From assembly GCA_030525685.1 (NCBI GenBank), contig JAUNEG010000011.1, forward strand, positions 1-64,000: a stretch of DNA of 64,000 nt, in the 5' to 3' direction. Below the pieces are notes generated by a model. The model saw nothing but the letters and a program-made list of their open reading frames with translations. It was not told the origin of the DNA and searched no databases. The position numbers were made by a program, and so were the translations under genes. The number at the start of each line of letters is the position of its first letter. Within the stretch, counting starts at the first letter, position 1. This stretch comes from Atopobiaceae bacterium. Its GTDB lineage: Bacteria > Actinomycetota > Coriobacteriia > Coriobacteriales > Atopobiaceae. Below, piece after piece: positions 6,525 through 39,688 of this stretch.

Positions 6525-7801
6525 GCGAGGCCAACGGCGTCTCCCTCGTCAACCTCGGGTGCCGGGTCAACCGGGTCGAGCTCGACGCCATGGCGCTCGA
6601 GCTCGAGCGCGCGGGCGCGAGGCTCGTCGCGGAGCGCGACGCGCGCGTCGTGGTCGTCAACACCTGCGCGGTCACGGGTGAGGCGGAGGCCAAGACGAGA
6701 AAGGCGGTACGCCACGCGGCGTCGCTTCCCGGCCGGCCGCTCGTCATAGCCACCGGCTGCGTCGCCAACCTCTTCGCCGACGAGATGGCCGCACTCGCCC
6801 CCAACGTGCGCGTCGAGCGCGACAAGTCAGCCGTTGCCGCCCTCGCCCTCGCCGAGCTCGGGCTTGATGGGGCCGACGACGGCCCCGACGCCCCCGCCGA
6901 GGGCTGCGCGCCCACGCCGACACCGACCGGGCGAACGCGCCCCGGCATCAAGATCCAGGACGGCTGCGACAACCGCTGCACCTACTGCATCGTCTGGCGC
7001 GCCCGCGGCGCCGGGCGCTCCCTGCCCCCCGAGCAGGTCCTCTCGGCCGTGCGCGGCGCTCAGGCAAGGGGCGCCCACGAGGTCGTGCTCACGGGCATCA
7101 ACCTCGGCAGCTACCGGGCATCGGACGCGGCCGGGCGCGAGCTGCGCCTCCCCGCGCTTCTCGACCTGCTCCTTTCCGAGACCGACGTGGAGCGGGTCCG
7201 CCTCTCCTCGATCGAGCCGCCTGACGTCACGCCCGAGCTCTGCCGCACCATGGCCGCGGCGGGGGGGCGCGTGGCGCCCTTCCTCCACGTCTGCCTCCAG
7301 TCCGGGTGCGACGAGACGCTCAGGCGCATGGCGCGCGTGTATCGCACGGCCGACTTCCGGCGCGTCGTGGAGACCGTACGCGAGCACCTGCCGCACGTTG
7401 CGCTCGGTACCGACCTCATCGTCGGGTTCCCGGGCGAGACGGACGAGGGCTTCGAGCGCTCGCTCGACTTCTGTCGCGAGGCCCGCTTCGCGAAGATGCA
7501 CGTCTTCCGCTACTCGCGCCGTCCCGGGACCCCCGCCGCGACCATGGCGGGGCAGGTGGACCCGCACGTCATGGCCGAGCGCGGCGACCGTGCCCGCGCG
7601 CTCGCCGAAGAGCTGCGCCTTGCGGAGGCGAGCCGCCTGGTGGGCGAGAGGGACCTCGTCGTCGTCCAGTATCCCGGGCGCGGGGTTTCCGGCGGCCTGT
7701 TCGACGTCCTTCTCGACTCGTCGGTCCCCGTGGACAGCCTCGTCCCGGTGCGGCTCACCGACGTCCGCGACGACGCGACGCTCCTCGCGGAGCTGCTCTA
7801 G
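6521..7801 (+). CDS. mtaB: tRNA t6A methylthiotransferase MtaB
   Basis: The 426-residue radical SAM enzyme should convert t6A37 of tRNA to ms2t6A. The N-terminal UPF0004 domain shows the three cysteines of the auxiliary cluster ([20 protein letters not shown]), followed by the radical SAM motif CDNRCTYC near residue 153 and [10 protein letters not shown]. It is assigned to MtaB rather than MiaB or RimO because of GCRVN, the WRARGAGRS segment after the cluster, and its position after dnaJ. Both other family members occur elsewhere in the window (21.2 and 29.0 kb). The C-terminal TRAM domain is short and weakly conserved. Confidence 0.88.
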
Positions 7802-8133
7802 GTCCTTGGTCGACACTCTTTTCACGGTTTGGGTTCGCTTCCGGCGGCCGTGAACTTGAAGCGTCCGCAAAGCGGCTGGTAGTGGCGTCGTTCAAGATCA
7901 CATGCTTCATGTTGTCCGGCAATCCGAACCCAAACCGATTTCGGGTTTGGGTTCGGATTTCTAAGCGAGACGCCTAAGATGACAATTCGAAATCATATAA
8001 ACGCAGCTAGACGATTTGCTTCAATCTGAGTATGTCGTCTGCTGCCCAGCGCGCGAACCCAAACCGTGACGACGGCACCGCGCCTCCCGCGCTGATGGGC
8101 TATCATCGAGTCAGCACCCGTCCCAGGAGGAAC
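7802..8133. other. Intergenic region between mtaB and phoH
   Basis: I see no supported gene in these 332 bases. It contains four copies of the CGAACCCAAACC repeat described separately, and an AT-richer core around 7975-8035. A TATCAT at 8101-8106 could be a -10 element for phoH, but no clear -35 accompanies it. An in-frame upstream extension of phoH to 8032 is rejected because the ATG at 8134 has a perfect AGGAGG-type site. Confidence 0.6.
7826..8066. repeat. CGAACCCAAACC repeat cluster 1, with a perfect 16-bp palindrome
   Basis: Four copies of a 12-bp motif alternate in orientation: GGTTTGGGTTCG at 7826-7837, CGAACCCAAACC at 7925-7936, GGTTTGGGTTCG at 7944-7955, and CGAACCCAAACC at 8054-8065. 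The middle two form a perfect inverted repeat with 16-bp arms (7921-7936 and 7944-7959) and a 7-base loop GATTTCG. The same paired element with the same 19-base offset occurs at 39561-39590. It could be an operator, an RNA hairpin or a small dispersed element; the T-tract needed for a classic terminator is short. Confidence 0.8.
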
Positions 8134-39465: not shown

Positions 39466-39590
39466 CGAACCCAAACCCTGAGGGTCAGCGAGAGGGCCCG
39501 GAAGGGTCTGGGTTCGAAATCCGGGCTTATGCTGCTCAGCAGTCAGAACGAGCGCCGATTCGAACCCAAACCGAATTCGACTTTGGGTTC
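39466..39590. repeat. CGAACCCAAACC repeat cluster 2
   Basis: Four copies alternate in orientation: CGAACCCAAACC at 39466-39477, GGTCTGGGTTCG at 39505-39516, CGAACCCAAACC at 39561-39572 and a partial TTTGGGTTC at 39582-39590. The last two form an inverted pair with the same 19-base offset as cluster 1 (7925 and 7944) and nearly the same spacer (GAATTCG here, GATTTCG there). The cluster lies between trxB and the 3' end of the chloride channel gene. Confidence 0.78.
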
Positions 39591-39688
39591 TATACAACCG
39601 CGATAATATATCTTATGTAAAGTGAGGGTGAGTTCGCAAACAGCTGCATAACAGGGCGATTCCCGACCACCCGTTCATCCCACTCCCC
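39591..39688. other. AT-rich stretch after repeat cluster 2
   Basis: Bases 39591-39620 are the most AT-rich in the neighbourhood and hold promoter-like TATACA and TATAAT-like sequences, yet no gene is supported before the minus-strand ClC gene. It could feed a small RNA or be a relic. Confidence 0.35.

Follow-up and report, generated by a model that had tools for sequence, protein, structure and literature searches.

REP-like repeats of bacteria are usually ascribed to Y1 transposases. In REPIN/RAYT systems, the closest described arrangement, inverted copies of a repeat that is also dispersed elsewhere lie on the flanks of a gene (PMC3116915, PMC2817692). Here, we describe arrays of short inverted sites, and a gene linked to them, from a genome placed in the Thermophilibacter/Olsenella group of the Atopobiaceae (G000). 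Two of these arrays lie in the window, that is, the whole 64-kb stretch of DNA that was analysed. Our main reading, to which we assign a probability of about 0.6, is that the arrays are dispersed cis-elements of a REPIN/RAYT-like gene-plus-repeat system, in which an unrelated enzyme with a nuclease fold acts on looped double-stranded DNA.

A sequence-only reading of the window had reported eight copies of a 12-bp motif, four in the mtaB-phoH gap and four in the trxB-ClC gap, and no other complete copy. Six of the eight were found to be exact and correctly placed (Table 1), and these are all the exact copies that the window holds, against 0.007 expected per 64 kb from base composition. Of the other two, one carries a mismatch, and the last, which had been placed at 39582, is both misplaced and degenerate. 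The geometry described for the convergent pairs was reproduced in full, including the 19-base offset, the spacers GATTTCG and GAATTCG, and the perfect 16-bp arms at 7921-7959. In Array 1, the left and right copies of a second motif, termed the core below, lie on the same strand and are thus direct repeats.

Table 1. Positions of the arrays and their component sites in the 64-kb window.
Feature	Position	Strand	Basis or distance	Remarks
Array 1, mtaB-phoH gap	7826..8065	.	site scan	Outer half-site, core, palindrome, core, outer half-site; same array in the orthologous T. gallinarum gap
Array 1, outer half-site S1	7826..7837	-	-108 centre to palindrome centre	Exact
Array 1, left-arm core motif	7863..7886	-	EM motif search over arms, log-odds 10.9	Minus strand reads GCCACTACCAGCCGCTTTGCGGAC
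Array 1, central palindrome	7921..7959	.		Two perfect 16-bp arms around a 7-bp spacer; contains half-sites S2 7925-7936 (+) and S3 7944-7955 (-), both exact
Array 1, right-arm core motif	7991..8014	-	EM motif search over arms	Minus strand reads TCGTCTAGCTGCGTTTATATGATT
Array 1, outer half-site S4	8054..8065	+	+120 centre to palindrome centre	Exact
Array 2, trxB-ClC gap	39466..39591	.		Partly degenerate; stops 5 bp before dif-like site; orthologous counterparts in G004 and G023, relic of one site in G003
Array 2, half-site	39466..39477	+	site scan	Exact
Array 2, half-site	39505..39516	-	site scan	One mismatch, CGAACCCAGACC
Array 2, left half of palindrome 2	39561..39572	+	site scan	Exact
Array 2, right half of palindrome 2	39580..39591	-		Three mismatches, AGAACCCAAAGT

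The sequence adjoining Array 2, ACCGCGATAATATATCTTATGTAAAGT at 39597-39623, occurs once in the window and resembles a dif (XerC/XerD) site; a 22-bp part of it recurs unchanged next to trxB in 18 genomes. At this position, both GC skew and gene direction flip, which suggests that it marks the replication terminus. The orthologous arrays of G004 and G023 likewise end 5 bp from a dif-like site.

Across the source genome, the half-site is present in 47 exact copies (25 forward, 22 reverse), against 0.21 expected and none for the reversed-word control. A scan for the paired form, CGAACCCAAANC-N7-GNTTTGGGTTCG with up to three mismatches, returned 18 palindromes and no control match; what the sequence-only reading took for a real element is a genome-wide family. 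Each of the 18 arrays is centred on a 31-bp palindrome, CGAACCCAAACC-N7-GGTTTGGGTTCG, and most have one additional outer half-site per side, in nearly constant orientation (minus strand on the left, plus strand on the right). The centre distances of these outer sites cluster near 88, 99, 109, and 120 bp, with next to nothing in between. For 156 arms from this and other genomes, the Rayleigh R of the helical phase was 0.92 at 10.5 bp; for the arms of the source genome alone, the observed R of 0.916 was reached by 0 of 200,000 random draws. The arrays are therefore spaced by whole helical turns in one shared phase, which argues for a protein-binding geometry on double-stranded DNA.

An EM motif search revealed the core, a directional motif (nACCTGSGGTTTTG) located between the inner and outer sites of most arms, the positions of which also move in helical-turn steps. 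The remaining spacer sequence is unrelated between different arrays of the source genome. In an all-against-all comparison of its arms, only the core exceeded shuffled arms and nothing else was shared; thus, recent copying is not visible. Because 13 of the 18 arrays occupy the same location in Thermophilibacter gallinarum, the arrays are old or functional rather than fast movers. Between these 13 orthologous pairs, identity amounts to 98.3% in the half-sites (590/600) and 85.0% in the spacers (1810/2129), a comparison in which the half-sites appear to be under strong constraint relative to the spacers. No clean case of an empty site with a target duplication was found, and the trxB-ClC gap of T. 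gallinarum holds another insertion. This locus (L328) contains no array; the gap measures 920 bp, and the insertion in it is AT-richer, carries an apparent coding sequence, and adjoins the dif-like site.

Gene calls from a codon model, checked with Pfam, placed the palindromes of the source genome between genes at every locus with identified flanking genes (L046 left out). Their neighbours include argG, ffh, relA/ferritin, tilS/hpt, pta, tmk, fba/deoR, tyrS/U32 peptidase, and purA/purD, in addition to mtaB/phoH and trxB/ClC, and the gaps are of all three kinds (co-directional, convergent, and divergent). The lack of a common function among flanking genes, first remarked on at the two loci of the window, extends to the other loci, where unrelated housekeeping genes are found. 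A transcription-factor regulon was therefore rejected, given the functionally unrelated neighbours and the presence of all three gap orientations. Of the operator-like array that had been proposed, the intergenic position and the helically phased, protein-binding geometry stand, but the regulon does not.

The route to the linked gene led through a different repeat. Several units with a CCTGCGGATATAT core bracket a gene for an uncharacterised protein of ~370 aa; with this protein as a query, each of the searched genomes of the genus yielded 3-13 paralogs, and one of the paralogs adjoins a CGAACCCAAACC array. The array-linked protein is ~345 aa long (349 aa in G000). Its gene in G000 lies outside the window (contig 4, 28821-29867), 25 bp from an array; the T. 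gallinarum ortholog is at 6564-7610 of locus L112, on the minus strand. Housekeeping genes, ffh and an L,D-transpeptidase-like gene, lie on either side of the gene. Among 80 genomes, orthologs of this paralog were detected only in G000, G025, G023, G004, and G024, at 61-100% identity, and in G045, a member of another genus, at 44%. The same six genomes are those with at least eight arrays (Fisher p=3e-9), although the five in-genus cases are not fully independent because they fall in one subclade of the phoH tree, the branching of which is unsettled and on which the array trait takes four changes. Palindrome counts in these six are 18 (G000), 15 (G025), 34 (G023), 21 (G024), 8 (G004), and 9 (G045, where the site is a one-base variant, CGAACCCAAATC); of the other genomes, G006 has two, G014 and G030 one each, and the rest none. 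Adjacency of gene and array was read in five of the six gene-bearing genomes: two arrays enclose the gene in G023, G004, and G045, and a single array adjoins it in G000 and G025. The array-linked proteins, including the G045 member, form one clade (support 99/98). A REP-associated transposase had been envisaged next to the repeats; a cognate gene flanked by arrays does exist, but its predicted product is a Vsr/DUF559-like nuclease-fold protein rather than a Y1/HUH transposase.

This protein belongs to a large, unnamed family of the Coriobacteriales, the C-terminal domain of which carries Vsr/DUF559-like PD-(D/E)XK residues. Invariant or nearly invariant positions in 70 paralogs are S180, E183 (69/70), G198, N207, D228 (70/70), Y252 (69/70), H257 (70/70), and R269, and residue 251 is E, D, or N. 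The conserved E, D, (E/D)xxG, and H are thus all present, in an order that we take to be that of Vsr/DUF559-like PD-(D/E)XK nucleases, and the predicted order of strands and helices fits a beta-beta-alpha-beta core. The linked proteins have no significant matches in Pfam or NCBIfam; for two paralogs, profile matches to REase_MTES_1575 (E=0.0067) and DUF559 (E=0.23) were obtained, both below the curated cut-off. A profile search against solved structures gave no match. AlphaFold models built from four sequences are of low confidence (pLDDT 45 for the whole, 57 for the C-terminal part), and the best structural neighbours are weak, with scores that by themselves prove nothing: I-Bth0305I (Z 4.7), VRR_NUC (Z 3.2), and TnsA (Z 3.1), all PD-(D/E)XK proteins. 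In our reading, the linked protein is a putative Vsr/DUF559-like nuclease that may cleave DNA.

A scan of genome contigs recovered 73 array stretches outside the source genome, from T. gallinarum, Olsenella sp. An270, 'Atopobium' UBA1382, Candidatus Olsenella stercoravium, and uncultured relatives. The spacings are kept in these stretches. Close sister species are without both the gene and the arrays. At trxB-ClC, the arrays of G000, G004, and G023 have diverged spacers, one site is left in G003, a genome without the linked gene, and the other listed genomes have no array, including G024 despite the presence of the gene. At mtaB-phoH, a degraded version of the array is found in G006, another genome that lacks the linked gene. 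These relics in gene-less genomes fit a decay of the arrays after gene loss. The gap upstream of phoH holds quite different inverted units, or none, in sister species; in two cases at the mtaB-phoH gap (L169 in G013 and L164 in G005), long near-perfect hairpins with no obvious core were seen, which may represent further repeat families.

Other paralogs are likewise accompanied by repeats of their own. When the 400 bp upstream and the 400 bp downstream of each of 77 sampled paralog genes were compared, 37 loci had a repeat of at least 15 bp common to both flanks, as against 0 of 400 swapped flank pairs; about half of the 77 are without a long flanking repeat. In a second family, inverted units of CAGTTTTAGGCAGTTT lie ~109 bp apart. 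Its sites number at least seven per strand in G006 and G024, are few in G023, and occur as scattered singles elsewhere, and the gene linked to this second family was found at 89% identity or above in G023 and G006 only. In G024, the gene is a broken remnant (contig 63, 5507-6247) with the repeats still on its flanks, and about ten CAGTTTTAGGCAGTTT units persist elsewhere in that genome. All 12 orthologs of this gene that were checked have an inverted unit of ~100-115 bp on at least one side, and the unit sequences differ from lineage to lineage, indicating that repeat and protein change together. Helical phasing is present within families and is not uniform when pooled over all of them (R 0.11-0.17).

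The CCTGCGGATATAT core, found in some of the phoH-gap units, is strongly enriched in the genus, with up to 24 copies against 0-1 for the reversed control. Its units are ~76 bp in size with long inverted ends, and their sequence varies from unit to unit while the pairing is conserved. At L234, L238, and L224 (G016 and G018), short units with this core lie on the flanks of a paralog gene; at L224 in G018, both units are kept around a C-terminal gene fragment alone, possibly through loss of the gene between them. At L222 (G018 contig 1, 244000-247100), two opposed core units bracket a gene with RHS-type repeats and not a nuclease-like paralog. At L323 (G018 contig 5), several 24-bp palindromes, GGACCCAAATCCGGATTTGGGTCC, surround a paralog gene at intervals of ~134-136 bp.

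In the mechanism we propose, the linked protein would bind the 12-bp half-sites, as a dimer on the palindrome and with further subunits on the outer sites. Subunits at the inner and outer sites would meet, forming loops of ~80-110 bp with all sites on one face of the DNA, and loop closure would bring the directional core of each loop up to the nuclease domain. If the DNA were then cut or nicked and afterwards repaired or copied, the half-sites could be kept uniform and arrays could occasionally be seeded in intergenic gaps; the arrays would decay once the gene is lost. The earlier suggestion of a REP-like mobile unit is right in direction insofar as the dispersed arrays are linked to a gene of their own, which they border; its mobility, together with binding, looping, and cleavage by the linked protein, we infer.

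The main rival, a domesticated architectural role, is compatible with most of the data. Here, the protein would be a domesticated DNA-bridging paralog, its nuclease domain unused for spreading, and the arrays would be looping sites that serve the host in transcription insulation, supercoiling, or chromosome folding. Strict phasing, strongly constrained half-sites, the orthologous location of most arrays in two species, and the invisibility of recent copies all suit such a role; however, it accounts poorly for the patchy presence of gene and arrays (both missing from close sister species), the fast evolution of repeats along with each paralog, the coexistence of many paralog families, and the retention of active-site-like residues across 70 paralogs. 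We consider it unlikely, albeit a serious contender. A system of defence or self-marking, in which the nuclease is aimed at incoming DNA and is tethered or inhibited by the host arrays, appears distinctly improbable. In its favour are the nuclease-like family, the many paralogs per genome, and the rapidly changing specificities, but the flanking genes that were read included neither a partner methylase nor defence neighbours, the linked genes match nothing in Pfam or NCBIfam, and the position between ffh and the L,D-transpeptidase-like gene is a housekeeping setting rather than a defence island.

The idea of an RNA hairpin, raised by the sequence-only reading, fared worse. As terminators or stabilisers between genes, RNA elements would match the intergenic location, and the inverted pairs of the short-unit families do fold well as RNA; yet helical phasing of 80-110-bp spacers is meaningless for single-stranded RNA, convergent and divergent gaps are occupied as well as co-directional ones, an Rfam search over 18 loci gave confident matches to tRNAs only, and the link to a DNA-nuclease-like gene is tight, so that we regard RNA elements as very improbable. 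Least probable of all are ordinary MITEs or REP/BIMEs served in trans by a known DDE or RAYT transposase: inverted ends, dispersed intergenic copies, and a RAYT-REP layout (PMC2817692, PMC3116915) are offset by the co-occurrence with and flanking of a nuclease-like gene, by linked proteins without a Y1_Tnp or other transposase domain in Pfam or NCBIfam, by an interior not common to the copies, and by the absence of a GTAG head.

Pfam, NCBIfam, Rfam, and the literature searched yielded nothing that matches the linked protein family or the repeats. The restriction of numerous arrays to genomes with one nuclease-like gene, which adjoins its own copy of the array, suggests a bacterial repeat system not described so far. 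More tentatively, and at slightly less than even odds, the paralogs may constitute a new Coriobacteriia class of gene and repeat, in which Vsr-like nucleases, several per genome and each with its own specificity, maintain and spread their own helically phased intergenic arrays through action at the common core of looped, double-stranded DNA. If an unrelated protein with a nuclease fold does follow the gene-plus-repeat logic, this lifestyle has more than one evolutionary origin. Such a finding would also offer numerous natural pairs of protein and site specificity, with a phased geometry testable in vitro, explain a good part of the unusual palindromes that lie between housekeeping genes of gut Coriobacteriia, and open a functional way into a multi-copy protein family outside the coverage of Pfam and NCBIfam.

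Among nucleases, the linked protein resembles the DUF559/Vsr-like and REase_MTES_1575 PD-(D/E)XK families and the EDxHD homing endonuclease I-Bth0305I in the residue order E ... PD ... (E/D)YxG ... H, and through weak profile and fold matches. It differs from these in falling below Pfam cut-offs, in its long N-terminal region without an assigned fold, and in the gene-specific repeats that bracket the linked genes; to our knowledge, such flanking repeats are not a described trait of any of these three groups. Among repeats, MITEs and BIMEs are similarly short, intergenic, and numerous, with inverted ends. In contrast to these, the arrays share only the ~15-bp core and no other interior, and have spacers that vary in helical-turn steps; no target duplication was found, with no clean empty/filled pair at trxB-ClC in which to look for one.

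The likeness to REPIN/RAYT goes further. In both, a single gene is bracketed by inverted copies of its own repeat, the repeats are extragenic, dispersed, and mostly inverted doublets, and the repeat sequence varies by gene lineage and accompanies the presence of the gene. The array-linked protein, however, is a putative Vsr/DUF559-like PD-(D/E)XK protein and not a Y1/HUH transposase (PF01797); the 12-bp half-site lacks both self-complementarity and a GT(A/G)G head (logo, 156 outer sites); the sites are helically phased over 80-120 bp, presumably on a loop of double-stranded DNA, with a second, directional core between them; and many paralogous nuclease-like systems coexist in one genome. Because enzyme class, site, and geometry differ, the array system is not a member of REPIN/RAYT, which is nevertheless the nearest known kind; the proposed Coriobacteriia class, if real, would be the nuclease-driven counterpart of RAYT/REPINs.
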